A stretch of 64,000 bases of DNA from Spirirestis rafaelensis WJT71-NPBG6. Lineage in GTDB: Bacteria > Cyanobacteriota > Cyanobacteriia > Cyanobacteriales > Nostocaceae. The stretch's first letter is position 1. Each line of letters opens with the position of its first letter. The notes beneath the pieces are model-generated. The model did not search any database and was not told the DNA's origin. It was given only the letters and a program-made list of their open reading frames with translations. The DNA lies in contig JAHHID010000001.1 of NCBI GenBank assembly GCA_019359015.1, positions 43,274 through 107,273 of the forward strand. The letters are read 5' to 3'. Made by a program: the position numbers and the translations under genes. Positions 9,325 through 62,949 of this stretch are shown in pieces.

Positions 9325-9350
9325 TACGGTTTATCCATCGAATTACCGTA
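9325..9350 (+). promoter_or_regulatory. 26-bp palindromic operator, copy 1
   Basis: Arms TACGGT and ACCGTA separated by 14 bp, both arms perfect. It lies 104 bp before the arylsulfotransferase-like gene and is followed by GTTTAAATGG, an AT-rich -10-like stretch. Part of a family of at least twelve copies in the window. Confidence 0.8.
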
Positions 9351-9454
9351 GTTTAAATGGCTAAATCCAATATGGAAAGCTAATTTTGTCTGCTTTTCAT
9401 CTTCTATAAGCATTGATGTAACTTGGATTGAAGACTTAGAAATTAAGCATAATT

Positions 9455-10582
9455 ATGACACTTGCAACTACCTTTGTTGAGCAAAATACGATTCGTCGTC
9501 GGGGTACTGGCTTAAAAGCATATAATCCTGAAAAAGCTTTCTCTGGATACACACTTTTTACACCACTAACTGGTAAAGGAGAAGTCTACTTAATTAACTT
9601 GGATGGAAAAGTAGTACATGAATGGCAACTACCATACCCTCCAGGTTTATATGGCTATATTTTACCCAATGGCAACCTATTTTATAACGGCAAAACAGCA
9701 GAAATTCCGCCACGTTTTCCTGTATGGTCTTTGTTTAAAGGTGGTGTAGTTTTAGAAGTAGATCCACAAGGTAAAATTGTGTGGGAATATCATCATCCAG
9801 ACCACCATCATGATGGTCGTCGTCTGCGTAATGGAAACACAATTTTACTATGTTTAGAAAAGATACCAAAATCTTTAGTTTCCCAAATTAAAGGTGGTGT
9901 ATCTGGAACAGAAGTAGATGGTGATATTTACGCTGATGTTATTCATGAAGTAACTCCAGAAGGTGAGATAGTTTGGAGTTGGCACGCTTATGAACATCTT
10001 GACTCCGAAAAATATGTAATTACCGCGCAAGACCAACGTCATGAATGGACACATGGCAACACAGTCGGCGAGCTTGCTGATGGTAATATTGTATTGAGTT
10101 TTCGTAATATCTCTACAGTAGTAATAGTTGATAGAAAAACAGGAAAAATTATCTGGGAACTAGGAGATGATGTTCTCGCTCAACAGCATTTTCCTAATGA
10201 ATTGTCTAACGGTAATTTGCTGATTTTTGATAATGGCGCTCATCGGCAGGAAATAACTTTGAATTTCTCGCGCATCATTGAAGTAAATAGACAAACAAAA
10301 AAGATAGTTTGGGAATATACTGATAACCCACCACACAACTTTTTCAGTTCTTACATTTCGGGAGCGCAACGCTTACCTAATGGAAATACTTTGATTACCG
10401 AGGGTGGTTTTGGTCGCATTTTTGAAGTAACAACAACAGGATAAGTTGTTTGGGAGTATATTAATCCCTATTTTGCTCCTCAAAATGCTCCTGGTGAATC
10501 GGCACTAGTAGCGCGTGGAGAACAAAATTCTGTATTTCGGGCTTTTCGTTATGCACCCGAAGAAGTGCCTTGGCTTAGTTAA
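9455..10582 (+). pseudogene. Arylsulfotransferase-like beta-propeller protein, split by an in-frame stop
   Basis: The product resembles the arylsulfotransferase (ASST) family, PQQ-like beta propellers that move sulfuryl groups between phenolic compounds. Repeated blades read GKIVWEY, GEIVWSWHA, GKIIWELGDD and KKIVWEY, each followed by LPNGN-like turns, and a His cluster (HHPDHHHDGRRL) lies near residue 115. A TAA at 10442-10444 stops the frame after 329 residues. The same frame then continues VVWEYINPYFAPQ to a proper stop at 10580-10582, giving 375 residues without the stop. The position corresponds to the K of a GKVVW blade, so one base change (AAA to TAA) explains it. The truncated form lacks the last blade. 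The operator at 9325-9350 links it to the sulfur regulon. Confidence 0.8.
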
Positions 10583-10617
10583 TTTTGAGTTAAACATTTT
10601 GAAGCAAGAGAGATAAT

Positions 10618-11688
10618 ATGTCAGAAATTACAATCTACAGTGCGGTTGTTTGTCCCTTTGCCCATAGGTCGCGTTTAGTACTTTTAGAAAAAGGTATTGA
10701 CTTTGATTTAGTTGAAATTGATTTACAGAATAAGCCAGCCAATTTTACAGATATTTCACCTTACAGCAAAGTGCCAGTTATTAAACATGGCAATGAGCGA
10801 GTATGGGAATCCGCAATTATTAATGAATATCTGGATGAAGTCTTTCCTGAACCTTCCCTATTACCAAAAGATGCTATCAGTAGGGCACAAGCACGAATTT
10901 GGATCGACTTTGCCAATACTCGATTTGTCCCAGCTTTCTCTAATTTGCTGCGTTCTCAAGAGGACCAAAAGCAAAAAGAAGCCGCACAAGAGCTTTATCA
11001 TCATTTGCAATTTATTGAAAACGAAGGTTTAGGAAAATTATCGCTTAATGGTTCCTATTGGTTTGGGGAAAGTATTAGCTTAGTTGACTTGACCTTCTAT
11101 CCTTGGTTTGAGCGTTGGTCTGCGATTGAGCATTATCGAGGTTTTAAATTTCCTGCTGAATTTTCCAGAATACAACGATGGTGGAATGCGGTGAGCCAAC
11201 GAGAGTCTATCAAGGCGATCGCTAACTCAAAAGAATTTTATCTAGAGCGCTATGCTAAATTTGCTACACTCAATACCAAAAAAGTGAGTGAAGAATTAAG
11301 TTCTAGCGGACAAGTTACTCCTCAACAACTGCAACAAGCTGCACAGCAAGGATTTAAGTCAGTTCTAAATCTGCGTTCTTCCCACGAACAAGGTTTTTTA
11401 CATGACGAACAGCAGCACGCTAAAGACGCAGGACTGAATTACGCGAACGTCCCTCTGAATCCTTCAGAATCGAACCAAGAATTAATTGAAAAAGCAATCT
11501 GGGAAATAGAAAATTTACCATCACCAGTATTAGTTCACTGTGCAGCAGGTGCAAGAGCAACAGCGATCGCTTTAATTGCTACAGCTAGTCAACAAAAGCT
11601 GACACCAGAGGAAATCAAGCTCAAAGCTGAGGAACTTGGTTTAAATTTAGACCAACCTCACTTGAAACAATTTCTTCAAGAAGATTAG
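10618..11688 (+). CDS. GST fused to a DUF442/dual-specificity-phosphatase-like domain
   Basis: A 356-residue two-domain protein. Residues 1 to about 218 are a GST: SAVVCPFAHRSRLVLLEKGI with a CPF motif in the thioredoxin fold, then [16 protein letters not shown]. Residues about 225-356 resemble the DUF442 (beta-lactamase-hydrolase-like) phosphatase fold, with VHCAAGARAT as the Cys-x5-Arg P-loop. DUF442 domains elsewhere are fused to persulfide dioxygenase or rhodanese in sulfide metabolism. Here the GST partner suggests glutathione persulfide or a glutathionylated sulfur compound as substrate; that is inference. A GST without the second domain and clearly paralogous is at 54227-54910. The gene follows the arylsulfotransferase by 35 bp and may share its promoter. 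Confidence 0.85.
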   Translation: MSEITIYSAVVCPFAHRSRLVLLEKGIDFDLVEIDLQNKPANFTDISPYSKVPVIKHGNERVWESAIINEYLDEVFPEPSLLPKDAISRAQARIWIDFANTRFVPAFSNLLRSQEDQKQKEAAQELYHHLQFIENEGLGKLSLNGSYWFGESISLVDLTFYPWFERWSAIEHYRGFKFPAEFSRIQRWWNAVSQRESIKAIANSKEFYLERYAKFATLNTKKVSEELSSSGQVTPQQLQQAAQQGFKSVLNLRSSHEQGFLHDEQQHAKDAGLNYANVPLNPSESNQELIEKAIWEIENLPSPVLVHCAAGARATAIALIATASQQKLTPEEIKLKAEELGLNLDQPHLKQFLQED

Positions 11689-11706
11689 TCTACCTTTATA
11701 GTTTGT

Positions 11707-11757: not shown

Positions 11758-12405
11758 TCATTTTTTGTGAGGGATATTGGAATACCCTGAGCGAAAAGAC
11801 TGCACACTTTTTTGTTCTGGATTATACTTATTTCGCAAAATACTACCAATATCATTACCCATAACATGAATGGATACTGACGGGGCAAATATAGTTATCG
11901 CTTTGACAGCATGGATATCGCCATCAGGAGGCAAGAGACGGTAGACATCACCGCGTTTTTGTTGCTGGACTTCAACTAATTCTAATACTGCACTTTCTTG
12001 CGTATCGCCATTATCGACACGTCGATAACGAGTCTCTTCAAGTTGACCTTTATACAAACCAATCAGTCCCCAAGCGAGATGATCGTGGACGGGAGTTGTA
12101 GAACCTGGGGGAATTACCAAACTAAAGATGGTGAGAGAACGGTCTTGAGCGCGATATAGTAACCATTGCCCAATACCTCCCCCCATAGAACTGTTAGGGT
12201 TAGGTTGAGCAAAATTTTCCGGTAGCCAATCTTGTTTTGTTAGTAATGCTTTGAAGTAAGGCTCAAGTTCACTGAGGGTTAGGGCAGGATTATCTATAGT
12301 GCGATCGCGTATCTCTTTAGCAGTGGCAACAAAAGAACGCAAGTCAATACTATCTACAAACCATTGGTCTGCTTCGTCATGTTCAAGAATATTGGCGTGA
12401 GGCAT
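11758..12405 (-). CDS. Cysteine dioxygenase type I-like thiol dioxygenase
   Basis: A cupin of 215 residues in the cysteine dioxygenase/3-mercaptopropionate dioxygenase family, which adds O2 to a thiol to give a sulfinate. The iron site is the three-His type: H-x-H in TTPVHDHLAWGLIGLYKG and the third His in PPDGDIHAVKA. The substrate may be cysteine or another small thiol; bacterial members differ and the sequence alone does not decide. A sulfinate product would fit the surrounding sulfonate and sulfite genes. Its start faces the operator at 12569-12594 and a relic of a second tauE gene. Confidence 0.85.
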   Translation of the reverse strand: MPHANILEHDEADQWFVDSIDLRSFVATAKEIRDRTIDNPALTLSELEPYFKALLTKQDWLPENFAQPNPNSSMGGGIGQWLLYRAQDRSLTIFSLVIPPGSTTPVHDHLAWGLIGLYKGQLEETRYRRVDNGDTQESAVLELVEVQQQKRGDVYRLLPPDGDIHAVKAITIFAPSVSIHVMGNDIGSILRNKYNPEQKSVQSFRSGYSNIPHKK

Positions 12406-12568: not shown

Positions 12569-12594
12569 TACGATAACTCGATAGATAAACCGTA
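12569..12594 (+). promoter_or_regulatory. 26-bp palindromic operator, copy 2
   Basis: Arms TACGAT and ACCGTA with 14 bp between; the right arm is perfect and the left has one mismatch. It is followed by CTTTATAAAT. It lies between the divergent thiol dioxygenase (start 12405) and TPR gene (start 12761). Confidence 0.7.
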
Positions 12595-12760: not shown

Positions 12761-13423
12761 ATGAAGCGAAAAAGTTTTATGGAGTCCGCTCTTTTTCAAA
12801 CTGCTAGTTACTTCATCCTGAGTATGTTGAGTGTAACTAATATGTCACAGCTAGTTAAAGCAGAGGTGCGCGATAGCTTTACAAGACAATATACGCAGGT
12901 ACAAATACTAGCACAGTTCTCTGAAAACGGACAGGAACGCGAACAACTCGTTCAAAAAGCAAATCTCTTATTTAACCAAGGTGACTTTACTGGTGCAGAA
13001 AAAGTTTTACGCAGCTTGATCAAGAAGTTCCCAGAGTCCAGCTATGGGCATTATCAATTAGGGAATGTCCTATTTCGTCAGAATAAAAAAGAAGATGCTA
13101 TCAAAGAATATCAAAAAGCAATTAGCTTGAATTCTAAATATGCTCTTGCATACAATGCGATCGGGCAAGTTTTTGCAAGTCAACAGCAATGGTCAGAAGC
13201 TATTGCGGAGTACCAAAAAGCATTAACAATTAACCCTGAGTATGGTGAGGCGCTAGCTAATCTTGCTTTAGCGCTTTGGGAACAAGGTAAACATCAGGAT
13301 GCTCGCGCTTCTTTGGAAAAAGCTTTAAATATTTTTAAAGCACAACAGAGATCTGACAAAGTACAACAAATTGAAAACATTTTACGGCAGATTAATTCTC
13401 GTGACGATCCGACGGTTTCCTAA
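12761..13423 (+). CDS. Exported TPR-repeat protein
   Basis: A 220-residue protein with an N-terminal hydrophobic segment (SYFILSMLSV, residues 16-25) that looks like a signal peptide or anchor, then about three and a half tetratricopeptide repeats from residue 70 on: GDFTGAEKVLRSLIKKFP, YQLGNVLFRQNKKEDAIKEY, YNAIGQVFASQQQWSEAIAEY and LANLALALWEQGKHQDARAS. TPR proteins bind other proteins; the partner is unknown. Its promoter region carries operator copy 2, so it may belong to the sulfur regulon. Confidence 0.8.
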   Translation: MKRKSFMESALFQTASYFILSMLSVTNMSQLVKAEVRDSFTRQYTQVQILAQFSENGQEREQLVQKANLLFNQGDFTGAEKVLRSLIKKFPESSYGHYQLGNVLFRQNKKEDAIKEYQKAISLNSKYALAYNAIGQVFASQQQWSEAIAEYQKALTINPEYGEALANLALALWEQGKHQDARASLEKALNIFKAQQRSDKVQQIENILRQINSRDDPTVS

Positions 13424-15003: not shown

Positions 15004-15005
15004 TA

Positions 15006-16196: not shown

Positions 16197-16526
16197 CTAC
16201 TTCAACTGCTTGAGTATTTGATGAGTTGAATCTTGTTTTGCTGTGTTGGTGCGATCGCGTCCCCAACCGATGTTATTGCGGTAACTGCCCAAAAGTCCTG
16301 TTTCTTTAAGTGATTTTTCGTCCACTGATTCTAGAGGTTCGACTTGCGGTGCTACATACAAAGCATCCACAGGGCAATACAATTCGCACATGAAACAGGT
16401 TTGACAGTCGCTTTGTCTGGCAATAGTAGGTGGTGCATCTGGCACTTTGTCAAAGACGTTTGTCGGGCAAACCTTAACGCAAAGATTACATTCAATGCAC
16501 CGCGACTCACTCACTAACTCAATCAA
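16197..16526 (-). CDS. Two-[4Fe-4S] ferredoxin subunit paired with the flavoprotein
   Basis: A 109-residue ferredoxin with two cluster motifs, CIECNLCVKVCP (residues 10-21) and CQTCFMCELYCP (residues 41-52), followed by a 55-residue tail ending in KQLK. This layout resembles the beta subunit of adenylylsulfate reductase (AprB) or ferredoxins attached to fumarate-reductase-like flavoproteins. It lies 153 bp downstream of such a flavoprotein gene, same direction. The start is a TTG at 16524-16526 with no strong ribosome site; an ATG two bases upstream is out of frame. Confidence 0.8.
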   Translation of the reverse strand: MIELVSESRCIECNLCVKVCPTNVFDKVPDAPPTIARQSDCQTCFMCELYCPVDALYVAPQVEPLESVDEKSLKETGLLGSYRNNIGWGRDRTNTAKQDSTHQILKQLK

Positions 16527-16679: not shown

Positions 16680-18302
16680 TTAAACACCCACAGCCTCCAA
16701 TTTCTTAATTTTCTCTGTTTTCACCCAAACTTGATCCAAACCACCACTAATTAAATAATGTTGCTGGTTCGCATCCATCTCTGGATAGTCTAAATGTTTG
16801 TGCATACCGCGAGTTTCCTTACGTTCTAAAGCGCTGCTGTACATCCATCGAGATGTAGCTACCATTGCTGCTGCTTCCCTCACCCGGACAATGTTGTGAG
16901 TATCTACTTGGCTTGTACTAATCTCTTTCCAGAGGTGATTTAGTCTCTGCAATGATTCTGTCAAACCTTTCTCGTTGCGGAAATAATTGCGATCGTAGGG
17001 GAAGACTTCAGCCTGTGTTGCTTTGATTACTTCTTCGGTATTGATTTGGTGTTGACTATCATTTGTCAATCCTGCTTTACCAACTGCCTGAACAGAACGC
17101 TGTGTTCCCCACTCGCCCAACTTCTGGGCATATTCAGCCGCAGATTTCCCCGAACAGTATCCAGAAGATATCGCCCAAGCTGCATTGTGACTACCACCAC
17201 CAGTAAAGCCACCACAAATTAATTGTCGTGTGGCAGCATCACCAGCAGCATAAAGTCCCTGGACTGAAGTAGCGCAGGTATGATCGACAATCCGAATTCC
17301 ACCCGTACCGCGCACTGTTCCTTCCAAGCGCAAAGTCACGGGGAAGCGTTGAGTAAATGGATCGATACCTGCGCGATCGAGAGGTAAGAAGAAATTAGGC
17401 TGTGCTTTCCGCATATGCGATCGCATATCTTCAGTCGCTTGATCTAAGATGGCATAGACTGGTTGTGTCAACAAAGTTTGAGCAATAACCGAACGTCCTC
17501 TTTGCGAACCTGCACCAGGTATTGGTGTACCATCTTCATAAGTAAAAGTTGCCCAATTATAAAACAAAGTTTTAGTAACGGAAGAAAAGGCGGGAGAGAT
17601 GCCGTAAGCGTTGGAAAACTCCATCCCCGACATCTCAACACCCGCTTCTGCTGCCATGAGGTATCCATCCCCCGTCAACACATTGCAACCGAGTGCCTTG
17701 CTCAAAAAAGCACAACCACCAGTCGCAATGATTACTGCACCTGCACGTACAACCCATTTTTCACTTTTCTGACGGTTAACCCCCGTTGCCCCAGCAACTG
17801 CGCCTTCGGCATCTACCAATAGTTGCAAAGCTGGGCTATGGTCTAAAATTGTTACCCCAGCCCGTTTGATTTGCTTCCGCATGATTGCCATATATTCAGG
17901 TCCCTGTAGACTGCGGCGATAGGGTTTTCCCTCTTCATCCACAGGAAAGGGATAACCCCATTCTGCTAATAGGTTGACGTTGGTATAAGTCTGATTTAAT
18001 ACTTGCTGCATCCAGTCCCGGTTGGATAGAAATCCTCCCAAAGCTTCTCGACTCACCATTGCAGCTTCCCTAGCTTCAGAATCGGGTGGTACATACCATA
18101 CACCATTACCCGATGCTGCTGCACATCCACTAGTACCGCAGTAGCCTTTGTCAACTAACACAACTCTTGCGCCAGCAGATGCAGCACTCCAAGCAGCCCA
18201 AGTACCAGCCGGACCACCGCCAATGATTAATACATCACAGACTAAGCTTTGGTCAAAATCGGTGGCAAATGAATTAAGCGAATATAACTGGTAATTACTC
18301 AT
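16680..18302 (-). CDS. FAD-dependent oxidoreductase, AprA/fumarate reductase type
   Basis: A 540-residue flavoprotein of the succinate dehydrogenase/fumarate reductase/AprA superfamily. The dinucleotide-binding motif is VLIIGGGPAGTWAAWSAAS near the N-terminus, followed by KGYCGTSGCAAASGNG. The second FAD motif is QGLYAAGDAATRQLICGG, and the helical C-terminal domain has VRVREAAAMVATSRWMYSSA. The ATG at 18302 with GAGGGA upstream is chosen over a TTG eight codons earlier. With the ferredoxin at 16197 it forms a pair like AprAB. AprA reduces or oxidises APS/sulfite, but key residues cannot be confirmed here, and no sat gene is nearby. Operator copy 3 lies 162 bp upstream, which supports a role in sulfur metabolism. 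Confidence 0.82.
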   Translation of the reverse strand: MSNYQLYSLNSFATDFDQSLVCDVLIIGGGPAGTWAAWSAASAGARVVLVDKGYCGTSGCAAASGNGVWYVPPDSEAREAAMVSREALGGFLSNRDWMQQVLNQTYTNVNLLAEWGYPFPVDEEGKPYRRSLQGPEYMAIMRKQIKRAGVTILDHSPALQLLVDAEGAVAGATGVNRQKSEKWVVRAGAVIIATGGCAFLSKALGCNVLTGDGYLMAAEAGVEMSGMEFSNAYGISPAFSSVTKTLFYNWATFTYEDGTPIPGAGSQRGRSVIAQTLLTQPVYAILDQATEDMRSHMRKAQPNFFLPLDRAGIDPFTQRFPVTLRLEGTVRGTGGIRIVDHTCATSVQGLYAAGDAATRQLICGGFTGGGSHNAAWAISSGYCSGKSAAEYAQKLGEWGTQRSVQAVGKAGLTNDSQHQINTEEVIKATQAEVFPYDRNYFRNEKGLTESLQRLNHLWKEISTSQVDTHNIVRVREAAAMVATSRWMYSSALERKETRGMHKHLDYPEMDANQQHYLISGGLDQVWVKTEKIKKLEAVGV

Positions 18303-18463
18303 CGAATCCCTCTGTAGTAATATCAATGCTTGCGTATAACAGAAAAATCTTCACTTTTGTTGGGTGCGATCGCGCTAATTGCTGACTGCATTGAATTATG
18401 GATGCAATGTGCCAGCATCGTTAGTTAACTGGCATCTGGGATATTTAATCTACAGATTTCAAC

Positions 18464-18489
18464 TACGGTTTCTTGGTCAAATTACCGTA
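18464..18489 (-). promoter_or_regulatory. 26-bp palindromic operator, copy 3
   Basis: Perfect arms TACGGT and ACCGTA with 14 bp between. Read towards the flavoprotein gene, the downstream arm is followed by GTTGAAATCTG. Inner positions fit the consensus (TCAAATTACCGTA in one half, 12 of 13). Confidence 0.8.
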
Positions 18490-18688: not shown

Positions 18689-19753
18689 TTAAGGTGCAGG
18701 ATTGGGATAACGTGTATGAACTGCGTCTAACTCTGCTAAAATCTCTTGGGTGAGAATTACATTCACACTATCAGTATTTTCTTGTAGTTGTTGTAAGGAT
18801 GTCGCACCAATAATTGTGCTACTGACAAACCAGCGACTGTTAACAAAAGCCAAAGCTAATTGTGTAGGCTTCAAGTTATATTTTTTGGCAATTTCTACGT
18901 ATGCTGCTACAGCTTCCTTGACATTTGGTTTGAGATAACGTTGTCCAAAACCTTGAAATAGAGACAATCGTGTATTTTCTGGTTTTTTATCATCTGTGTA
19001 CTTTCCAGATAACAAACCAAATCCAAGGGGACTATAAGCGAGTAAGCCAACATTTGTGTAACGAGAAACTTCCGCTAAAGCTGAATCAAATACGCGATTC
19101 AGCAAGTTATAAGCATTTTGAATCGAGATAACTTTGGGTAATCCTAGCTGTTTGGCGATATGAACAAACTCACTAACTCCCCAAGGTGTCTCATTACTCA
19201 AACCCAGATAGCGAATTTTCCCGGCTTTGATGACATCTGCAAATGCCTCTAATTGTTCGGCAATACTGATAGCTTCACGTTCAAAATCAGGTTTATACTC
19301 TGTCTGCCCGAAGGTGGGAACATAGCGTTCGGGCCAGTGAATTTGATATAAGTCGATATAATCTGTTTGCAATCGCTTCAGGCTATCATCTACTGCTTGC
19401 TTGATATTATTACTATCAACTTTGATGTTTCCTCCGCGCAGCCATTTAAAAGGACGACCGGGACCCGCAATTTTTGTGGCAATAATCAGGCGATGTCGGG
19501 ACGACAACGCTCCGCGAACGCGTTCCTGTTTTTTCAACCATTCCCCAATGTAAGCTTCCGTTTTTCCTTGGGTTTCACCACGGGGGGGTACTGGGTACAT
19601 CTCCGCAGTATCAATAAAATTGATTCCTTGAGCAACAGCATAATCTAACTGTTGATGTGCCTCCTCAATGCTATTCTGCTGTCCATAAGTCATGGTTCCC
19701 AGACAAATTTCGGAAACCTTGAGGTCACTTTCACCAAGTTGATTGTATTTCAT
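18689..19753 (-). CDS. tas: Aldo/keto reductase, Tas type
   Basis: A 354-residue NADPH-dependent aldo/keto reductase close to E. coli Tas in length and pattern. Catalytic tetrad parts are visible: D and Y in NFIDTAEMYPVPP, K in IIATKIAGPG, H in YQIHWPER. The coenzyme region has SSTIIGATSLQQL. The natural substrate of Tas is unknown. A weak operator copy at 19821-19846 lies upstream. A second, less similar reductase is at 51717-52697. Confidence 0.88.
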   Translation of the reverse strand: MKYNQLGESDLKVSEICLGTMTYGQQNSIEEAHQQLDYAVAQGINFIDTAEMYPVPPRGETQGKTEAYIGEWLKKQERVRGALSSRHRLIIATKIAGPGRPFKWLRGGNIKVDSNNIKQAVDDSLKRLQTDYIDLYQIHWPERYVPTFGQTEYKPDFEREAISIAEQLEAFADVIKAGKIRYLGLSNETPWGVSEFVHIAKQLGLPKVISIQNAYNLLNRVFDSALAEVSRYTNVGLLAYSPLGFGLLSGKYTDDKKPENTRLSLFQGFGQRYLKPNVKEAVAAYVEIAKKYNLKPTQLALAFVNSRWFVSSTIIGATSLQQLQENTDSVNVILTQEILAELDAVHTRYPNPAP

Positions 19754-19820: not shown

Positions 19821-19846
19821 TACACTAAATCTACCGAATTATCGGA
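19821..19846 (-). promoter_or_regulatory. 26-bp palindromic operator, copy 4 (degenerate)
   Basis: Arms TACACT and ATCGGA, each with four of six matches, with the standard 14-bp spacing. Read leftwards, the arm is followed by the AT-rich TTTTTAATAAAAT. It is listed because of its position upstream of the tas-like gene; on its own it would be weak. Confidence 0.4.
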
Positions 19847-19990: not shown

Positions 19991-20016
19991 TGCACTATTT
20001 TGACCGAGTTTTCGTA
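19991..20016 (+). promoter_or_regulatory. 26-bp palindromic operator, copy 5 (degenerate)
   Basis: Arms TGCACT and TTCGTA with 14 bp between and TTGACCGA in the middle, followed by GATTATTAATT. It is 240 bp before the porin start. The rest of the 500-bp spacer between the divergent genes (19754-20255) shows no other clear feature. Confidence 0.45.
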
Positions 20017-20255
20017 GATTATTAATTAGGTAGTTTGATCATTGCCCTAAAATCATTTTCTCTTGCCTATTTTTGTTATTAGGAAGGGATAGTTTTGATG
20101 ATGACCAGATACGAAGCTGGAATCAGAATGGCGATAAAGTGCAAAATTGAAGCTTTTACCTCATTGGTAATAAAATTTTTCTTTTTTATCCAATGTCATC
20201 CGACAGATACATGTAGAAGTACAGAGGATTTCTACTAGACCGAATTGTGTGTTCT

Positions 20256-22016: not shown

Positions 22017-22096
22017 GAGAGTTAACCTTTTTTTGTCTACATACTACGCCAAGTCAATCAAGTTAATGTACTATAAAATTAGGAGAATAAATTTTC

Positions 22097-24256: not shown

Positions 24257-24282
24257 TACTATATTCCGACCAATTTACCGTA
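24257..24282 (+). promoter_or_regulatory. 26-bp palindromic operator, copy 6
   Basis: Arms TACTAT and ACCGTA with 14 bp between. The right half CCAATTTACCGTA matches the consensus at 12 of 13. It is followed by GATTTAAAAAC and lies 100 bp before ssuB. Confidence 0.75.
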
Positions 24283-31818: not shown

Positions 31819-31845
31819 GTAGTTTGATCAAAAATAACTATCGTG

Positions 31846-33975: not shown

Positions 33976-34001
33976 TACGGTAAATTGATAGACAAACAGT
34001 A
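33976..34001 (+). promoter_or_regulatory. 26-bp palindromic operator, copy 7
   Basis: The left half TACGGTAAATTGA is the exact consensus. The right arm is ACAGTA (five of six), spacing 14 bp. It is the distal one of two copies before ssuD, 92 bp upstream of the next. Confidence 0.75.
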
Positions 34002-34137: not shown

Positions 34138-35295
34138 ATGCAACTACTTTGGTTTATTCCCACACACGGAGAAGGACGCTATCTCGGTACTGCCATCGGC
34201 GGACGGACAGTTAACTTTGATTACTGGCGACAGATTGCTCAAGCGGTGGATCACTTGGGCTTTACAGGTGCTTTATTACCCACAGGGCGTTCTTGTGAAG
34301 ATGCTTGGGTTTTGGCATCAGCGCTGGTAACGCATACGAAAAAAATGCGGTTTTTGGTAGCAATTCGTCCGGGGTTGATGTCGCCAGGAGTAGCAGCGCG
34401 GATGGCGGCAACGTTCGATCGCGTTTCTGGGGGGCGCTTGCTGATTAACGTGGTTACAGGTGGCGATCCGGTAGAATTAGCAGGGGATGGTTTGCACCTT
34501 GACCATGACGATCGCTACAAACTCACAGACGAATTTTTAACAGTGTGGCGACAGATAGCTGCAAGTGAAACTGCTAATTTCCAAGGCGATTATCTCAACA
34601 TCCAAGACGGTAAGCTACTGTTTCCACCCGTGCAGAAACCTTATCCACCTTTGTGGTTTGGCGGTTCTTCACCGATTGCGAAAAGTATTGCCGCCAAACA
34701 CGTAGATGTGTACTTGACTTGGGGTGAACCACCCGCACAGGTTGCCGAAAAAATTGCCGCAGTCCGTCGGCTGGCTGAAGCCCAAGGACGCACACTTCGG
34801 TTTGGTATTCGTTTACATGTGATCGTGCGGGAAACCGAGAGTAAAGCTTGGGATGCGGCAAATGATTTAATTCGCTACGTAGATGAAGAAGCGATCAACC
34901 AAGCTAAGAAAGCTTATGCCCGCATGGATTCAGAAGGGCAACGCCGGATGGGAGAATTACATAAAGGTAGTCGAGAAGCTTTGGAAATTAGCCCGAATTT
35001 GTGGGCAGGAATTGGTTTAGTGCGCGGTGGTGCGGGAACTGCTTTGGTAGGCGATCCCGATACCGTTGCCAAAAGAATGTTGGAGTATGCAGACTTGGGA
35101 ATTGAGACTTTTATCTTTTCAGGTTATCCGCATTTAGAAGAAGCCTATCGCGTTGCCGAATTACTCTTTCCGCGTTTACCCTTGGAAAATTTACCTGTTT
35201 TAGAACCACAGATGACTAGTCCGTTTGGCGAGGTAGTCGCCAATCGGGAGTTTCCCGAACAAGTCAAAGAAAGAACCCCAGCTACCGTAGATTAA
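34138..35295 (+). CDS. ssuD: FMNH2-dependent alkanesulfonate monooxygenase SsuD
   Basis: SsuD splits C1-C14 alkanesulfonates with O2 and FMNH2 into an aldehyde and sulfite. The 385 residues match the bacterial luciferase-like SsuD closely: [16 protein letters not shown] at the N-terminus (His of the active site), [17 protein letters not shown] with the conserved Cys, [41 protein letters not shown] and [15 protein letters not shown] with the flexible lid arginine. ssuE follows after 29 bp. Two operator copies precede it. The ribosome site is weak (TAGGGATT) before the ATG. Confidence 0.96.
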
Positions 35296-47434: not shown

Positions 47435-47460
47435 TACTGTTTATTGATAAAATTACCGTA
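47435..47460 (+). promoter_or_regulatory. 26-bp palindromic operator, copy 9
   Basis: Arms TACTGT and ACCGTA, 14 bp apart; the left half TACTGTTTATTGA is 10 of 13. GATTTAAGATTTAAGG follows. It lies between the divergent aldolase and methyltransferase genes. The rest of the spacer (to 47634) holds a CCTCACCCC / GGGGTGAGG hairpin. Confidence 0.75.
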
Positions 47461-49580: not shown

Positions 49581-49961
49581 TTATGAAAAAATACTGTTCG
49601 CTTCTGCTATTTCTATCCGATTTCCAGCAGGATCGCGCAAAAAGAAGCGATCGCGTCCTGGTATTGGTCGTTGATCAAGAATAATTTCCACACTATGCGA
49701 TCGCAGGTGTTCCTGAAAAGCCTGCAAATCATTTACTAAGTAACAAATATGTCGTCTAGATGCTGTGTTATTCGGGTTTTGCTCAGTACTAATATGAATC
49801 TGAATATTTCCCAGAACATACCAAGCACCTCCATTCGCTTTGATTGTCTCAGGTTTAGGAATTTCTGTAAGTCCCAAAACTTTGCTGTAGAAAAATAGCA
49901 TTGCATCTTCTGCTTCCGGGGAAGATGTCACTTGAATATGATCAATTGTATTCAACCACAT
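49581..49961 (-). CDS. VOC/glyoxalase-fold protein
   Basis: A 126-residue vicinal-oxygen-chelate protein: NTIDHIQVTSSPEAEDAMLF at the start, HICYLVNDLQAFQEHL in the middle and RDRFFLRDPAGNRIEIAE at the end, with His and Glu as probable metal ligands. The substrate is unknown. Its start faces the operator at 49984-50009. Confidence 0.82.
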   Translation of the reverse strand: MWLNTIDHIQVTSSPEAEDAMLFFYSKVLGLTEIPKPETIKANGGAWYVLGNIQIHISTEQNPNNTASRRHICYLVNDLQAFQEHLRSHSVEIILDQRPIPGRDRFFLRDPAGNRIEIAEANSIFS

Positions 49962-49983: not shown

Positions 49984-50009
49984 TACGATATACCTATCAA
50001 CTTACCGTA
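49984..50009 (+). promoter_or_regulatory. 26-bp palindromic operator, copy 10
   Basis: Arms TACGAT and ACCGTA, 14 bp apart; right half TCAACTTACCGTA is 12 of 13. It is followed directly by GTATAATACC, a perfect -10 hexamer one base after the arm. This is the clearest case of the operator covering the -35 region. It lies 41 bp before the dienelactone hydrolase. Confidence 0.82.
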
Positions 50010-53233: not shown

Positions 53234-54100
53234 CTAATCGGCATAAAAGACCAGCGCCCTCAATTCAATGCTTTCGCGGGGTGGGGCATCCGGGGGGCTT
53301 GTCGGGTCCTCGAAGGCAGTGTGTGCCGCAAATCGCGCCCGTCCGTCCTCGGCAGAGTCGAAGCACTTGATAAACAGTGCCTCATTCGGTTGCAATTGCG
53401 GAAAGTAGAACCATCGGTGCGCCGGATTGTACGTAATTGCGTAAGTCTCACCAACGCGATCGCGATATACCAGATCCCCAGCTACCAAGTCTTTGGGTGC
53501 GATGCTTTGGGCGTCACACACTGCCAATGGAGACTCTTGGACTGGTTGGGCGATCGCTCGCCAGATGTTGATTACGGCAAACCTTTGTTGCAGCAACTCA
53601 TCAGTGTTATCTATTCCCCGTGCTGCCAACTCCAGAAGGGCGCGAGTATAGCCAGATTTGGCTGTAAAGTCGTTATGTACGCGCTTGACTGGCTCTTTAA
53701 TTTGGCTCTCACCCTGTTGCAAGCGTTGAGCATTACGGAGAGTATGATCGAAAATCACCACCTGAGTTGCACCTGTTACCTCTTTCAAAAGTTGCTCGGC
53801 TTCAGGATAATAGACGCGCTGTATCTCCGAATCGTCGTAGAAATTACGGACATTGCTATGATGGGCAGCGTAAGCGAATCCCTCTCGATCTAAGGATAAA
53901 TCTCGTGCGATCGGGCGAGCATTGCGGATCGGCAGGTTGTGCGCTTCGTACACTCCGTTCTGCCTTGGAACGCCTGGTGGTGGTTCATAGGTGTAGTTGA
54001 CAGGCTTTTCTGCCATTGGAGTCAGGTAATTGAGGACTGCCTCAACATACGGCAAATCCTCTAAAACAGGTTTGGATAAAATTGGGCTGGATAAGCTCAT
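53234..54100 (-). CDS. CmcJ/NvfI/AsaB-type oxidoreductase (2-oxoglutarate oxygenase-like)
   Basis: A 288-residue protein of the CmcJ/AsaB/GA4-desaturase-like family. Landmarks are TYEPPPGVPRQNG near the N-terminus, YYPEAEQLLKEVTGATQVVI, FDHTLRNAQR with a conserved His, KRVHNDFTAKSGYTRA with HxD as likely iron ligands, and FAVINIWRAIAQPVQESPLA. Members hydroxylate or desaturate small molecules in secondary metabolism. The sequence is GC-richer than its surroundings. It shares no operon with neighbours; 126 bp downstream of the GST gene, same direction. Confidence 0.84.
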   Translation of the reverse strand: MSLSSPILSKPVLEDLPYVEAVLNYLTPMAEKPVNYTYEPPPGVPRQNGVYEAHNLPIRNARPIARDLSLDREGFAYAAHHSNVRNFYDDSEIQRVYYPEAEQLLKEVTGATQVVIFDHTLRNAQRLQQGESQIKEPVKRVHNDFTAKSGYTRALLELAARGIDNTDELLQQRFAVINIWRAIAQPVQESPLAVCDAQSIAPKDLVAGDLVYRDRVGETYAITYNPAHRWFYFPQLQPNEALFIKCFDSAEDGRARFAAHTAFEDPTSPPDAPPRESIELRALVFYAD

Positions 54101-54226: not shown

Positions 54227-54910
54227 CTACTTTTGAGCAGCACCCACAGCAGTCGGTTCACCGAGAATCTTGGTAAATCGCTCTATATAGTAGCTGACGG
54301 GATTTTCGACGACACGAATTGATTCGCCATCGCGCACCACATTCCACCATTGCTGCAAGCGAGGTGTTTCTGCTGGTAGTGTGAATTTGCGGAAATGTTC
54401 TAAAAGCGGTAAGCGTTCAAACCAGGGATAGAAACTGATATCAACTAAACTCAGTTTATCCCCTAACCAGTACTGACTATTTCCAGACAGCTTGCCTAAT
54501 CCTTCTTGCTCTATATACAGCAGGGATTCTAGGAACTCTCTTCGTCCCTGTTCCTGTTCGATGCTATCTTTACCCCGTAGGAATTTGTTAAACGCAGGTA
54601 CTAAGCGAGTATTAGCGTAGTCGATCCAGATGCGAGCGATCGCTTTTGCTGCTGGATCGTGGGGTAATAAAGGTGGTTCCGGGAAGACTTCATCTAGATA
54701 TTCATTGATGATGGCAGACTCGTATATCTCGATATCCCCATGTTTGATGGCTGGTACTTTGCCATAGCCGGAAATCTGCGTGAATCCATCCGGTTTGTTC
54801 TGTAAGTCAATTTCAATCGGGGTAAAGTCAATTCCTTTTTCCAGCAAAACAACACGGGTTCGTTGGGAGAAGGTAGAGCCTTTGGCAAAGTAAAGTTGTA
54901 TGTTGCTCAT
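54227..54910 (-). CDS. Glutathione S-transferase
   Basis: A 227-residue GST closely related to the N-terminal domain of the fusion at 10618: [20 protein letters not shown], then [20 protein letters not shown] and [20 protein letters not shown]. The fusion has CPF in the active-site loop; here it is SQR, so the residue that activates glutathione may be Ser. It is transcribed away from operator copy 11. A role in handling organosulfur conjugates is plausible from context. Confidence 0.88.
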
Positions 54911-55094: not shown

Positions 55095-55120
55095 TACACT
55101 TTATCGGTCAATTTACCGTA
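55095..55120 (+). promoter_or_regulatory. 26-bp palindromic operator, copy 11
   Basis: Right half TCAATTTACCGTA is an exact match to the consensus; left arm TACACT has four of six. Spacing 14 bp. CAATAACTTATATTG follows. The 666-bp spacer (54911-55576) between the GST and amidohydrolase genes has no other clear feature beyond a CTGCCA...TGGCAG repeat near 55026-55068. Confidence 0.75.
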
Positions 55121-55576: not shown

Positions 55577-57061
55577 ATGACAATTGCACTTGAACGTCCC
55601 ACAAAGAAGTCTCGGTCAGCACAGATTCGGGAGCAACTAGGTTATCCCATCATTGATACGGATGTGCATACCCAGGAATTTGAACCTGCTTTTCTCGATT
55701 ATTTAGCTCAAGTGGGTGGTTCTAAGATTGCCGATAGCTTCCGAGAGCATCTACCCGGAGCAGGTCGCTATCGTTGGTTCCAGCAAAGTTGGGAAGAACG
55801 TCGTACCTACCGCACAGCTCGTCCTCCCTTCTGGGGTCGTCCCACTAAGGACACGTTGAATCTGGCAACTATCAGCTTGCCAAAGCTGCTGCATGAACGT
55901 TTGCAGGAAGCGGGGACAGACTTTGCTGTGCTATATCCCAACTTGGCAACCCTAGCACCGCAAATCAAAAACGAAGAAATGCGACGGGCAGTTTGCCGTG
56001 CAGCGAACCTTTATCATGCAGATATATTCCGTGCTTATAGCGATCGCGTTACTCCCATCGCTACTATTCCTCTGAATACACCCCAAGAAGGAATTGAGGA
56101 ATTGGAATATGCAGTCAAAGAACTGGGACTCAAAGCGATTCAAATTCCCGCTTACGTTACTCGCGTTATTCCTGGCTTCGAGAAATATCCTGAAGAAGTG
56201 CAACGGGAAGCAACGTGGATTGATACTTTCGCTTTGGATAGTGCCTACGATTACGATCCCTTCTGGGCGAAGTGCGTAGAATTGAAAGTTGTTCCTACCA
56301 CTCATGCTTCTGGTATGGGTTGGACTGCTCGTCGTTCAATTTCTAACTACCAATACAATCACATTGGACACTTTGCCTCAGCGGGTGAAGCGTTCTGCAA
56401 AGCTTTGTTTTTTGGTGGTGTTACCCGTCGTTTTCCGAACCTCAAGTTTGCCTTCCTTGAAGGTGGTTCAGCTTGGGGTGCTAGCCTGTATGCTGATATC
56501 ATCTGGCACTGGGAAACTCGCAATCCAGAGATTTTACAGAATAATCATCCGGGCAACGTAAATAAAGAAGAATTGCGTGAACTGTTTGCTCGTTATGGTG
56601 GACCAGAATTGCGCGATCGCTTTGAGGAAATTGGTAGTGGTTTAGGCTTCCACGGTAAATACTTTGCCCCAGAAGACCCTGGTGAGTTGAATGAATTTGC
56701 TGAAGCTGGAATTACAAAACCCGAAGATGTGCGCGATCGCTTCCTAAATCACTTCTACTTTGGCACAGAATCCGACGATACCCGCGTTGCCTATGCTTTC
56801 CATCAAAAAGCGAATCCTTATGGCGACAGAGTAAAAGCTTTCCTGGGTTCTGATTCCGGTCATTGGGATGTGCCTGATATCACCGCTGTTACCTCCAACG
56901 CTTACAGCTTTGTAGAACGCGGCATTTTTAGCGAAGAAGACTTGCGCTACTTCTTATCTATCCATCCTTTGGAGTTGTACACCAGTCTCAATCGTGACTT
57001 TTTCAAGGGTACGGGAATTGAGAAAGAAGCAGAAGAATATCTAGTAAGTGTTGGTCACTAA
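55577..57061 (+). CDS. Amidohydrolase-family metal-dependent hydrolase/decarboxylase
   Basis: A 494-residue TIM-barrel protein of the amidohydrolase 2 family (ACMSD-like). The N-terminal metal motif is IIDTDVHTQEF (D-x-H here), strand motifs are KVVPTTHASGMGWT and FAFLEGGSAWGASLYADIIW, and the late acidic motif is FLGSDSGHWDVPD. Relatives hydrolyse or decarboxylate aromatic or heterocyclic acids. Long insertions relative to the family (GGPELRDRFEEIG) are visible. It probably processes an organosulfur-derived acid, by context only. Confidence 0.85.
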   Translation: MTIALERPTKKSRSAQIREQLGYPIIDTDVHTQEFEPAFLDYLAQVGGSKIADSFREHLPGAGRYRWFQQSWEERRTYRTARPPFWGRPTKDTLNLATISLPKLLHERLQEAGTDFAVLYPNLATLAPQIKNEEMRRAVCRAANLYHADIFRAYSDRVTPIATIPLNTPQEGIEELEYAVKELGLKAIQIPAYVTRVIPGFEKYPEEVQREATWIDTFALDSAYDYDPFWAKCVELKVVPTTHASGMGWTARRSISNYQYNHIGHFASAGEAFCKALFFGGVTRRFPNLKFAFLEGGSAWGASLYADIIWHWETRNPEILQNNHPGNVNKEELRELFARYGGPELRDRFEEIGSGLGFHGKYFAPEDPGELNEFAEAGITKPEDVRDRFLNHFYFGTESDDTRVAYAFHQKANPYGDRVKAFLGSDSGHWDVPDITAVTSNAYSFVERGIFSEEDLRYFLSIHPLELYTSLNRDFFKGTGIEKEAEEYLVSVGH

Positions 57062-59988: not shown

Positions 59989-61086
59989 TTAAACCGTCAC
60001 TAACTCATCAAATGTGCGATCGCGCGATTCAATTTCTCGCACCAAAGGAATTACCGTGCGACCAAAAGCTGGTAAATCATCGCTGTAATGCAAGAATCCA
60101 CCCAGAATCAAATCCACCCCAACTTCATAGAATTGGCGAATGCGATCGGCTACTTGGTCTGCTGTGCCAATCAAGCCTGATCTAAAGCCATCGTTATATT
60201 GCACCAAGTCTTCAAAATTAGAGTTTGCCCACATTCCGACTTTCTCACGAGTTGAAGATCCTGCTTGTTTTACTGCCTCTCCAAAACCTGCAACAGCTTC
60301 TTTGTCTGCTTGAGCAATAATCTCTCGCAGCACGTCATGAGCTTCTTTTTCGGTGTCTCGCACTATGATAAAAGCATTTAGTCCAAACTTGAGTTTACGT
60401 CCTTCCTCACGCGCTAAGGCAGAAACTTCCTGAATTTGTTCGCGCACACCTTCAATTGTGTTGCCATTCATGAAATACCAATCAGATACCCTTGCTGCCA
60501 TCCGTCGTGCAGCTTTGGAGTTACCACCTTGAAAGATTTCTGGATGGGGATTTTGATTAATTGGTTTAGGCTTCACCCAACCACCGTTGATGCGGTAAAA
60601 GTCTCCCTTAAAGTGGAACTCATCTTCTGTCCACATTCCTTTGAGTACGCGGATGAACTCCTCGGATCTGCGATAGCGTTCATCATGGTCTAACCAGGGT
60701 TCGCCATAAATTGTGAATTCACCTTTAAACCAACCACTGACAACATTTAGAGCAAAGCGACCTTTAGAAATAAAATCAATTGTCGCACCCATCTTGGCAA
60801 CTACACCCGGATGCCATAATCCTGGATGAACTGCGGCAATCAATTTCAGCCGTTCAGTTACAGGTGCTAAAGCTGCAACTGTAGTCAGTGCCTCTAGTTG
60901 GTACTCAGCACCGTAGCTGGCAATAAATCGAGCTTGTGCCAAAGCATAATCAAAGCCTACCTGTTCCGCAGTTTGAGCGAGTTGGACATTGTAATCAAAT
61001 GTCCAATCTGTGCGTTGAGGAATTTTGCTGACAACCAATCCACCACTAACATTCGGAACCCAATATGCAAACTTAATATCCACCAT
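59989..61086 (-). CDS. sfnG: Dimethyl sulfone monooxygenase SfnG
   Basis: SfnG uses FMNH2 and O2 to convert dimethyl sulfone to methanesulfinate and formaldehyde. The 365 residues match SfnG closely in order: KFAYWVPNVSGGLVVSKI, LIAAVHPGLWHPGVVAKMGA, NVVSGWFKGEFTIYGEPWL, DHDERYRRSEEFIRVLKGMW and NGNTIEGVREQI. It belongs to the same luciferase-like class as SsuD (34138). Methanesulfonate formed from its product is a substrate for SsuD. ATG at 61086 is preferred to a GTG three codons upstream. It is the middle gene of a leftward group GST-sfnG-sfnB. Confidence 0.92.
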   Translation of the reverse strand: MVDIKFAYWVPNVSGGLVVSKIPQRTDWTFDYNVQLAQTAEQVGFDYALAQARFIASYGAEYQLEALTTVAALAPVTERLKLIAAVHPGLWHPGVVAKMGATIDFISKGRFALNVVSGWFKGEFTIYGEPWLDHDERYRRSEEFIRVLKGMWTEDEFHFKGDFYRINGGWVKPKPINQNPHPEIFQGGNSKAARRMAARVSDWYFMNGNTIEGVREQIQEVSALAREEGRKLKFGLNAFIIVRDTEKEAHDVLREIIAQADKEAVAGFGEAVKQAGSSTREKVGMWANSNFEDLVQYNDGFRSGLIGTADQVADRIRQFYEVGVDLILGGFLHYSDDLPAFGRTVIPLVREIESRDRTFDELVTV

Positions 61087-61128
61087 GATTGACACCTATT
61101 ATTGATATTAACCTGTCACGGATGAGCG

Positions 61129-62346
61129 TTAATAAAGCGATGCCAACACTTTATCGGCTGCCCTTCGGAATGCAGTTGCAGCACCAGCGCTCATGTCGCG
61201 GGGCGCACATACGCGATTCCGCAAATATGCGAGAGTAATCGCTCCGACAGCAGCAGATGCGGGATCGAAACTATCTTTTCCACCAACTCGACCACCGGGT
61301 AATAATGTAGAATTACCACTGATCAGATACTCCGCCAAAAGTCTAAGGTGAAAATCAACAGCTTCTTGAATTGCTGAGGTATCACCCTCTCTTGCCAAAG
61401 CTTGAACCCCAGAGTTTTTTAGTACGTCTTTGATGGCTGCTTCATGATTATCACTCAGTCTTTCGGCGGCTTCTGCCCGATATTGAATTGCCTCACTATC
61501 TGCGGTTTCCAAAGGCAATGAATTTCCTAAAGGTTCTAAGCCGAATCTGCGACGCAAAAGTAAATTGTTGGTGATATTATCCGACTTGACCCGATGATAA
61601 GCAGGACGCTGATTAAGTGCTTCAAACCAAGCATTGATGCGAGGAAAACGCTCATTTCCTTTGATGTGATAACCCCGGTACACGGGTAAATTAGCCGCCA
61701 ATCTGTCTAAATGGGGGCTATACATAATGTCTACTAAGCTAAAGGTTGAAACAAAGTAGGGACCTGGGTATTTAGCTAAGGCTTGCTCAATCTCGTCTAA
61801 TTTAGCTTCAAACTCTGTTTGTAAACTTGCTAACTCGTTAGCATCACTAGTCTGTTCCCGCAGAAATTTGTAGCTAAGACTGAGAAAGCCGTTAGTTTCA
61901 ACATTCTCAATTAGCTCTTTTGCAACGGCGTTTTCCTCTGGATCTTCAGGAAGCAGTGATGGACTGCTAAATCGCTTTTCTAAGGCTAAGAGAATATCCT
62001 TAGATTCATACACTAACTCTTCCTCAATTTTTGCTGCCGGGACAAGGGTTGTAGGAACTAAGTCAGTGTACCATTTGGGTTTGTTACTCAGGTCAATAAA
62101 CTCCGTCGCAAATGGAATTTCCTTTTCTTCTAGAGCGAACCAAACCCGCTCGCAGAAAGGACACCATGAGTTGGTATCTCGATAAAGCAGAACTGGCGGT
62201 GTGGTATCTGGAGGAAGTTTTTCTAAACTGCTGGGTATGGGAGCAGTAGAAGGAGATTGTCCCGGTCTACGCACCCTGCGAGCAGAGGTATTTTGTTGGG
62301 CAATTTCTAACAGTTGTTCCCAATTAGATACTGTGTAAATTGACAT
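61129..62346 (-). CDS. GST-domain protein with CPFC active site and C-terminal extension
   Basis: A 405-residue protein. A 45-residue linker-like N-terminus is followed by a GST domain with NSWCPFCERVWFALEEKEIP (about 60-79, a CPFC redox motif unlike classic GSTs) and YESKDILLALEKRF. After FPRINAWFEALNQRP the GST fold ends and an extra 130-residue helical region follows, ending FRRAADKVLASLY. A glutathionyl-hydroquinone-reductase-like or dethiolase role is possible. It lies 43 bp upstream of sfnG and is probably cotranscribed. Confidence 0.83.
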   Translation of the reverse strand: MSIYTVSNWEQLLEIAQQNTSARRVRRPGQSPSTAPIPSSLEKLPPDTTPPVLLYRDTNSWCPFCERVWFALEEKEIPFATEFIDLSNKPKWYTDLVPTTLVPAAKIEEELVYESKDILLALEKRFSSPSLLPEDPEENAVAKELIENVETNGFLSLSYKFLREQTSDANELASLQTEFEAKLDEIEQALAKYPGPYFVSTFSLVDIMYSPHLDRLAANLPVYRGYHIKGNERFPRINAWFEALNQRPAYHRVKSDNITNNLLLRRRFGLEPLGNSLPLETADSEAIQYRAEAAERLSDNHEAAIKDVLKNSGVQALAREGDTSAIQEAVDFHLRLLAEYLISGNSTLLPGGRVGGKDSFDPASAAVGAITLAYLRNRVCAPRDMSAGAATAFRRAADKVLASLY

Positions 62347-62449
62347 TTGGCACCTCTTTAAAAGTTTCCTAACAAACCGCCTTCAAGTTAACTGCACTGA
62401 CGATGAAAACTGTTTTATACTTAGCGATCGCCTAAATTAGTAGTAGTGG

Positions 62450-62638
62450 TTAAATATCATCACTACTAATTTCGATAGATTTTTTAATTTTATCTTCACT
62501 CGGTAATTCCCAAATATCATCACGTTTTCTCTGTTCTTTATCTACTACTAATTGCAGATGTTGTGGTAACTTCGTTTGTTGCCACACTGACCATAATTCA
62601 CCATCTAACAAGTCTTTTTCAATTTTTCCAAAAAACAT
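62450..62638 (-). CDS. Small hypothetical protein with a strong ribosome site
   Basis: A 62-residue frame with a near-perfect Shine-Dalgarno (AAGGAGG, nine bases before ATG). The sequence is charged (FGKIEKDLLDGELWSVWQQT, then KEQRKRDDIWELPSEDKI) with no membrane segment. I do not recognise it. Its start faces operator copy 12; it may be the first gene of the leftward group. Confidence 0.6.
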   Translation of the reverse strand: MFFGKIEKDLLDGELWSVWQQTKLPQHLQLVVDKEQRKRDDIWELPSEDKIKKSIEISSDDI

Positions 62639-62923
62639 TTATCCATCCTCCTTAGTTTTGATAGAAATAAGAAATTTTTCAAGGATATATTTGCATCGCT
62701 TCTTCATCTAGTTCTGCTTTCTCCCCTGGTGACGCTTGGTCATACTTGCGTTGCTACCAATCTGCAACCTCTAATACTGTTCATCACACCGCAGTTGCCA
62801 TAAACAAAAATCCAAATCCCGTAGCGATGCTCAGACATAGCTTTCAAGAACCCTTGTAAAAGTTTGATTTCGGCAAAAGAATGCAATTGATTTTTCAAGT
62901 AACCGATCTATTACTTAACATAA

Positions 62924-62949
62924 TACTGTAAATTAATCGATATACCGTA
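62924..62949 (+). promoter_or_regulatory. 26-bp palindromic operator, copy 12
   Basis: Arms TACTGT and ACCGTA, 14 bp apart; left half TACTGTAAATTAA is 11 of 13. It is followed by GTATTTAAAG as a possible -10, 150 bp before the oxygenase start. Confidence 0.75.

Follow-up and report, generated by a model that had tools for sequence, protein, structure and literature searches.

In Proteobacteria, the Ssu and Sfn genes are under the control of the LysR-type proteins CysB/Cbl and of sigma-54 regulators and, to our knowledge, sulfur control in cyanobacteria is known mainly through CysR of one unicellular strain. Within the Rrf2 family, to which IscR, NsrR and SifR/HypR belong and whose members bind palindromic operators, IscR is characterized by three cysteines acting as Fe-S ligands. 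According to passages of PMC2940859, PMC3828012 and PMC2869319, CymR of Bacillus subtilis and Staphylococcus aureus is a repressor of cysteine genes and, in B. subtilis, also of the sulfonate (ssu) genes, being stabilized on DNA by CysK and released by O-acetylserine. Moreover, part of PMC12895370 describes how CysE inserts its C-terminal isoleucine into CysK, and counts CymR among the proteins with such a tail. The window analysed here, namely the whole stretch of 64,000 nucleotides, corresponds to contig C1:43274-107273 of the 7.07-Mb genome of the cyanobacterium Spirirestis rafaelensis, and contains an island of organosulfur genes in which a 26-bp palindrome, hereafter the operator, appears repeatedly. 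This operator appears to belong to a cyanobacterial sulfur-limitation regulon, and the protein binding it is most likely a dimeric, CymR-like repressor of the Rrf2 family, which in this genome would be RrfB. The proposal draws on features that the sequences themselves carry, namely the operator with its conserved positions and its concentration in the island, the single Rrf2 clade that has it upstream, the gene neighbourhoods and the C-terminal tail of the protein.

The operator reads TACGGTWWATYGA in its first half and TCRATWWACCGTA in its second one, the symmetrized half TACGGTWWATYGA being joined to its own reverse complement, with TACGGT-N14-ACCGTA as core. Positions 1, 2, 3 and 6 were invariant in 20 out of 20 halves, position 10 was T in 18 of them and position 13 was A in 17. 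Allowing for two mismatches at most, 11 matches to the core were found in the window compared to 1.01 expected, and at least 11 were reached in none of 100 shuffles. These matches were ten strong sites and 26167-26192, which was taken as a chance match because it lies fully within a coding frame. A weight matrix built from the ten strong sites scored them between 27.6 and 32.6 bits (25.1-30.3 by leave-one-out), followed by the sites at 19821 (19.4 bits), 22045 (14.0 bits) and 19991 (13.6 bits); the next best place reached 9.6 bits, and 0.14 places per window were expected at 12 bits or more. The window holds ten strong sites, a good one (19821) and two weak ones (19991 and 22045). Thus, the at least twelve copies reported in the first-pass annotation were recovered by core search, shuffles and weight matrix as ten strong sites and up to three weaker ones, with the spacing of 14 bp between arms constant throughout. 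Their location in spacers was also confirmed, as the 13 sites share no base with any of the 49 frames taken as genes (72% of the window). The degenerate thirteenth copy suspected at 22045-22070 exists as a site, and it is plausible that both this and the other weak site at 19991 are real operators.

Outside the 26 bp, the only information was a preference for A/T at 2-4 bp from each arm. Furthermore, the 100-bp flanks of the copies had a mean identity of 28% (maximum 38%). The copies therefore do not belong to a mobile repeat, for which similarity beyond the 26 bp had been proposed as the sign. Palindromes with A/T-rich centres form easily, which could make the copies a product of chance, but an origin by chance or from a mobile repeat is extremely improbable considering the shuffles, the concentration of the copies in one island, the lack of common flanks among them and their conservation, with a reversed-pattern control giving a single match over 145 genomes.

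The operators of the window and the genes next to them are given below (palindromes without strand); as start codons were assigned mechanically, the distances between operators and genes are approximate.

9325..9350, operator with perfect core, 32.6 bits, 104 bp before the arylsulfotransferase gene 9455-10444 (+)
11758-12405 (-), thiol-dioxygenase-like gene, with a Pfam match below the cut-off
12569..12594, operator, 30.7 bits, between the divergent genes 11758-12405 (-) and 12761-13423 (+)
12761-13423 (+), TPR gene, divergent from 11758-12405
16680-18326 (-), AprA-like flavoprotein gene, followed by a ferredoxin-like gene, 16197-16526 (-)
18464..18489, operator with perfect core, 31.6 bits, 137 bp before the AprA-like flavoprotein gene
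19821..19846, weaker operator, 19.4 bits, preceding the aldo/keto reductase gene 18689-19753 (-)
19991..20016, weak operator candidate, 13.6 bits, preceding the OprB-type porin gene 20247-22016 (+)
22045..22070, weak operator candidate, 14.0 bits, immediately before the SsuA-like binding-protein gene 22097-23197 (+)
24257..24282, operator, 27.6 bits, 100 bp before the gene of an SsuB-like ATP-binding cassette (ABC) ATPase, 24383-25189 (+)
33976..34001, operator, first of the ssuD pair, 31.0 bits
34068..34093, operator, second of the ssuD pair, 29.3 bits, 44 bp before ssuD
34138..35295 (+), ssuD, FMNH2-dependent alkanesulfonate monooxygenase (TIGR03565, 621.9 bits, cut-off 518.2)
47435..47460, operator, 31.4 bits, between the divergent genes 46244-47281 (-), beta-eliminating lyase, and 47635-48291 (+), methyltransferase-like
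49984..50009, operator, 29.1 bits, between the divergent genes 49581-49961 (-), glyoxalase family, and 50051-50800 (+), dienelactone hydrolase-like
55095..55120, operator, 28.2 bits, preceding the glutathione transferase gene 54227-54910 (-), with the amidohydrolase gene 55577-57061 (+) on the other side
59989..61095 (-), sfnG, dimethylsulfone monooxygenase (TIGR04021, 632 bits, cut-off 382.95)
62924..62949, operator, 32.1 bits, the nearest leftward gene being the glutathione transferase gene 61129-62346 (-), with its start 577 bp away

The statement that most copies adjoin sulfur genes agreed with the Pfam and NCBIfam matches beside the operators, the site at 62924 standing apart without a clear target. 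In the same island, sfnG has no operator directly before it. Both ssuD and sfnG pass their curated cut-offs, a likeness to the Ssu and Sfn scavenging genes of Proteobacteria but, unlike in Proteobacteria, no CysB/Cbl or sigma-54 regulator is proposed for the cyanobacterial island. On the other hand, the -10-like box described on the gene side of the operator did not stand as a specific layout: TAnnnT at most 4 bases away was found in 16 out of 58 gene-proximal and 12 out of 58 distal positions (3.8 expected, after excluding 19 operator sites that had genes on both sides or on none). Since the enrichment was similar on both sides, a -10 box hard against the operator was discarded as evidence of promoter layout.

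Elsewhere in the genome, the exact core TACNGT-N14-ACCGTA, which occurs at five window sites, appeared only at C14:30742. Of the one-mismatch places outside the window, 24 were rescored and two of them exceeded 10 bits, C5:58677 (24.9 bits) and C12:64646 (18.4 bits, in a spacer before an unrecognised gene). A 26-column sequence model, trained on 25 sites taken in the two orientations (11 of this genome and 14 from elsewhere), gave 21 matches with E <0.3, representing the ten window sites and C14:30742, with 150 of 6,433 first-look candidates scored. In this search 11 of the training sites are the recovered sites themselves, the C5 copy and most of those on C42 were missed, and middling copies can escape because of the fraction of candidates scored. 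The copies on the two contigs with several of them are:

C14, copies of 33.5 (perfect, at 30742), 21.0 and 16.6 bits, among genes for a TPR protein, an acetyltransferase and a binding protein (translations read by eye)
C42, six copies of 9.9-23.2 bits, before tauE, in the rrfB/cysE spacer (two), in the cysA/Crp gap, ahead of a NIL-domain gene and 26 bp upstream of sbpA (gene names from reading the translations, Crp and Rrf2 proteins from a library scan)

The copy at C5:58677-58702 (L008:6678-6703) coincides with the beginning of a PstS-like gene that is followed by phosphate-type ABC genes, lies 12-37 bases inside the mechanically started frame, and was initially dismissed as a chance copy for touching a frame. 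This was overturned by a relative in HT-58-2, a PBP_like_2 protein behind a strict operator to which the PstS-like protein is 54% identical over 101 residues, so the C5 copy was considered a probable site. As judged from this relative, the PstS-like transporter may be part of the sulfur regulon, or may carry something other than phosphate. The density elsewhere in the genome had been suggested as a check of the motif, and only a few copies were found beyond the window, near sulfate, cysteine and binding-protein genes. The term organosulfur regulon fits the operator-led organosulfur genes and is too narrow for the weaker copies at sbpA, cysA/Crp, the NIL-domain gene and the cysE/rrfB spacer.

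A strict form of the operator pattern was present in 77 of the 145 genomes of the family (Nostocaceae), and in 20 of 244 genomes drawn from the phylum, a sample too skewed towards Nostocaceae for the count to be used as a test of the regulator. An exact scan over contigs of 84,980 species gave 54 near-perfect stretches, some of them from one genome, of which 53 were cyanobacterial; the named records with the operator were Nostoc and other cyanobacteria, and the lone stretch from outside, in Lunatimonas (Bacteroidota), was inside a gene. Regarding the 82 proteins flanking operators in loci L015-L080 (one counted twice), 38 belonged to families with a clear sulfur role, either by cluster or by the Pfam match of the representative: luciferase-type monooxygenases (13), SsuA-like (8), sulfate-type binding proteins (4), TauD (3), AprA-like, FGE-sulfatase factor, cysteine dioxygenase and TauE (2 each), and SsuB-like and SsuC-like (1 each). 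Other flanking families also occur in the window, namely methyltransferase-like proteins (5), glutathione transferase, aldo/keto reductase and OprB, and some have no known tie to sulfur (PAP2, a photosystem II-type protein and Cpn10). Separately, in two genomes (loci L188 and L189) a gene read as relaxase-like is situated at most 4 kb from the near-perfect operators at 2003 and 2072, and the stretch yielded no recognisable sulfur gene.

As stated in the first-pass annotation, no regulator gene was found in the window. The first lead was an Rrf2 gene of Microcoleus that is preceded by a perfect operator. Four Rrf2 genes exist in the S. rafaelensis genome (RrfA-RrfD), of which RrfB (C42:36954-37382) is divergent from cysE within the sulfate locus and exceeds the Rrf2 superfamily cut-offs (PF02082, 116.3 bits, cut-off 30; TIGR00738, 107.4 bits, cut-off 73.3). 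Scanning upstream of 50 rrfB orthologues with the window matrix, 49 had at least 11 bits and the remaining one 8.1, and for 45 of the 50 the best match fell between -67 and -79 or between -151 and -163. With a stricter matrix, 10 bits or more were reached upstream of 36 of the 50, compared to 0 out of 352 control windows. Upstream of the paralogues, no operator was found in 40 loci: scores did not exceed 1.2 in 21 out of 21 for RrfA and 4.8 in the 18 readable out of 21 for RrfC, and were negative in the one for RrfD, three RrfC loci without a frame found being left out. RrfC and RrfD were therefore rejected as the regulator for having no upstream operator in their 18 and 1 loci. Furthermore, seven out of eight diverged RrfB copies (six of the eight from genomes without an RrfB match) had the operator upstream. 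In 12 named genomes outside Nostocaceae, where 30 loci were taken from 44 Rrf2 matches (14 had no locus and were unscanned, 7 of these being full-strength), the operator appeared at 5 of 28 readable Rrf2 loci, in Oscillatoria princeps, Oscillatoria PCC 10802, Microcoleus, Elainella and Tildeniella, and not at the remaining 23. Loci L181, L220 and L223 were left out of the counts as no frame was found.

In a FastTree phylogeny, every operator-bearing Rrf2 protein entered formed a single clade with support 1.0 (64 rows, one gene twice), leaving RrfA, RrfC and RrfD outside; one clade member, from Chroococcus, had no operator by scan (4.1 bits, start uncertain). In the master loci, which were chosen by RrfB and overlap the set of the upstream scan, operators of at least 10 bits were found near rrfB in 16 out of 16, near sbpA in all 8 holding it and near crp in 12 out of 17, with 0.075 operators expected per 16 kb by a Markov model, and copies reached up to 29.1 bits in relatives, above the C42 copies of this genome. 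Moreover, RrfB and the operator co-occurred across the family (both in 62 genomes, operator only in 15, RrfB only in 22 and neither in 46; P = 4.9e-9, uncorrected for kinship). The choice between repressor and activator had been left open; a repressor is favoured, though not proven, because of the regulator family and because, in 7 out of 8 loci, the distance from the end of the operator to the sbpA frame is 19-27 bp.

The correspondence between RrfB and CymR is a strong analogy in terms of protein, tail and gene linkage. The closest solved relatives of RrfB are PDB 4cic, CymR 2y75 (E 1.8e-17) and 3lwf, within the CymR/IscR group. RrfB ends in MYYI, a C-terminal isoleucine tail like those docking into CysK, and 4cic and 3lwf end in YI; MYYI was found in 62 out of 63 rows of the RrfB clade. 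Linkage to cysE and cysK is alike for the RrfB clade and CymR, as in Pseudanabaena sp. ABRG5-3, where cysK, cysE and rrf2 are in a row with a Crp gene and cysA beside them, and with operators before cysA and cysK. In contrast, CymR belongs to Firmicutes and RrfB to cyanobacteria and, unlike with CymR, operators are also found at sulfate ABC transport genes, at a large organosulfur island and at the gene of the regulator itself. The three-cysteine loop of IscR was not found between the wing and the C-terminal helix in the 61 readable clade rows, 48 of which had no cysteine and 13 a single one. By analogy with CymR, we infer that RrfB binds the operator, represses and senses CysK and O-acetylserine. 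When sulfur is replete, RrfB would be kept on DNA through its MYYI tail docked into CysK, covering the promoters of the organosulfur genes, the sulfate-transport genes and cysE, together with those of rrfB itself and of the CysR-like Crp gene; under sulfur shortage, O-acetylserine would build up, CysK would let go and RrfB would leave the operator.

Several observations weigh against this proposal. The best NCBIfam equivalog for RrfB is CymR (NF047409), with 95.8 bits for a cut-off of 195; because RrfB stays below it, membership of the CymR family is not claimed, but only that RrfB would work like CymR. The MYYI tail is common to RrfA and RrfC, so it is not specific to RrfB. The operator TGTAA-N9-TTACA of the SifR/HypR subgroup of Rrf2 (19 bp, in a portion of PMC9218516) is shorter than and unlike the one of 26 bp. 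In this genome, the own operators of rrfB are poor (11.6 and 10.9 bits). In addition, 11 of the 77 operator genomes have neither RrfB nor the diverged form, and 24 genomes with one of these lack the strict operator, a pattern that misses weak copies. In genome G080, whose Rrf2 matches are an RrfA and one more, four operators are found close to a gene for a sulfate-type binding protein. Moreover, co-occurrence with the operator is as good for the linked Crp gene as for RrfB. Finally, in the sections of PMC7784912 consulted, Nostoc touching moss had sulfonate transporters up and sulfate transporters down; a single common repressor does not explain such opposite changes, so more than one signal may act.

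The genomes without RrfB bring in the widespread paralogue RrfA (C4:34494-34928) as a possible main binder, with RrfB as another target or a helper. All 11 possess RrfA, whose recognition helix (PDRYLEQ) and wing (KSQRGSKGGY) resemble those of the RrfB clade (PERYLEQ and QSQRGSKGGF). Because of these genomes and G080, RrfA may share the operator specificity, and it probably stands in for RrfB where the latter is absent. As the main binder, however, RrfA is unlikely, given that none of its 21 upstream regions had an operator and that it occurs in 135 of the 145 genomes (best E <1e-60), 63 of which have no strict operator. RrfA may be akin to Slr0846 of Synechocystis. In PMC7058544, the Rrf2 protein Slr0846 is listed as not studied.

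The main rival of RrfB is the linked CysR-like protein of the Crp family (C42:39648-40187, 2.3 kb from RrfB), which would bind the operator and activate sulfur genes. In the cyanobacterium Synechococcus elongatus, CysR is known to control sulfur genes (text excerpts of PMC12016511), and a CysR-like gene is present in the RrfB locus here. The Crp gene is also found together with the operator (both in 69 genomes, operator only in 8, Crp gene only in 29 and neither in 39; P = 1.3e-9, uncorrected for kinship), and operators of at least 10 bits lie near its start in the 12 of 17 master loci mentioned above. As both genes go together so closely, co-occurrence was rejected as a means of choosing between them. 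The operators upstream of the Crp gene equally fit this gene as a target, those ending 19-27 bp before the sbpA frames are ill-suited to an activator, and by score cut no Crp gene is present in 8 of the 77 genomes with the operator. Moreover, the NCBIfam matches of the Crp protein, NtcA among them, are weak and none is above its cut-off. NtcA sites have the form GTA-N8-TAC, which was not found within 200 bp of the ten strong sites; no short CRP/NtcA-type motif was found near the sites, and this reading was discarded. The plasmid pANL of S. elongatus (46,366 bases), presumably the one responsive to CysR, has no operator (best score 6.1). A title cited in PMC8049743 indicates that S. elongatus plasmid genes answer to sulfur and CysR. 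Overall, binding by the Crp protein was judged improbable, and RrfB, an Rrf2 and not a Crp family protein, is preferred. Apart from this, pANL (L245) carries its own Rrf2 gene at 31647-32081 amid cysK, cysE and srpI, with the tail MFYI, the recognition helix YLGQ versus YLEQ in RrfB, and a half-operator-like TACTTAAACTC starting 61 bp upstream.

Considering RrfB as the regulator, it is a tentative and rather doubtful extension that RrfB-type proteins act as a second master sulfur regulator above CysR, sulfate transport and their own genes, sensing cysteine status through CysK, with graded operators, weaker at sulfate than at scavenging genes, that put sulfate uptake first and the scavenging of sulfonates, sulfones and sulfate esters last. 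The grading was observed in this one genome (25.1-30.3 bits by leave-one-out at the island sites vs. 9.9-23.2 on C42), and the copies of the sulfate locus are stronger in relatives, as indicated above. With an operator and a candidate repressor, the sulfur regulon of filamentous cyanobacteria becomes open to direct tests and to scans of any genome, and the data suggest that cysteine sensing by CymR and CysK would reach beyond Firmicutes. In the open-access literature searched, no account of the operator or of a cyanobacterial CymR-like regulator was recognised among the matches listed. RegPrecise 3.0 has a cyanobacterial collection, read as 14 genomes and 18 regulogs. There is also a bearing on symbiosis, as an alkanesulfonate monooxygenase mutant (Npun_F5882) of Nostoc punctiforme was unable to colonise feathermoss according to PMC7784912, the examined text of which names no regulator of this gene. 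In symbiotic Nostoc, the alkanesulfonate genes required for moss colonisation could be switched by a repressor of the RrfB type. Additionally, a conjugative-typed plasmid of Nostoc sp. UHCC 0302 (L248) has an extra Rrf2 gene at 5983-6465, whose neighbours include sulfonate-binding, FAD-binding and ferredoxin-family genes; over 12.5 kb, operator scores did not exceed 12.3 bits.

Other genes of the window were also inspected. The proteins encoded at 26855-28693, 42862-44220 and 53234-54100 had no Pfam match, NCBIfam placing the last one among the CmcJ/NvfI-family oxidoreductases. Beside the operator-led arylsulfotransferase gene, 10618-11688 encodes a glutathione transferase fused to a phosphatase-like domain (BLH_phosphatase). 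At 48692-49501, a single frame combines the N-terminal half of a TauE-type exporter with an O-methyltransferase, as a result of a fusion, a frameshift or an assembly effect. At 3804-6377 and 6371-7966, two NiFe-hydrogenase subunit genes (-) abut, and overlap by 7 bases, a large serine recombinase gene (+), an arrangement reminiscent of heterocyst rearrangements, in which the recombinase of an excision element lies beside a hydrogenase gene. Lastly, a protein of the IS605 OrfB/TnpB type is encoded at 323-1657, at the left edge of the window.

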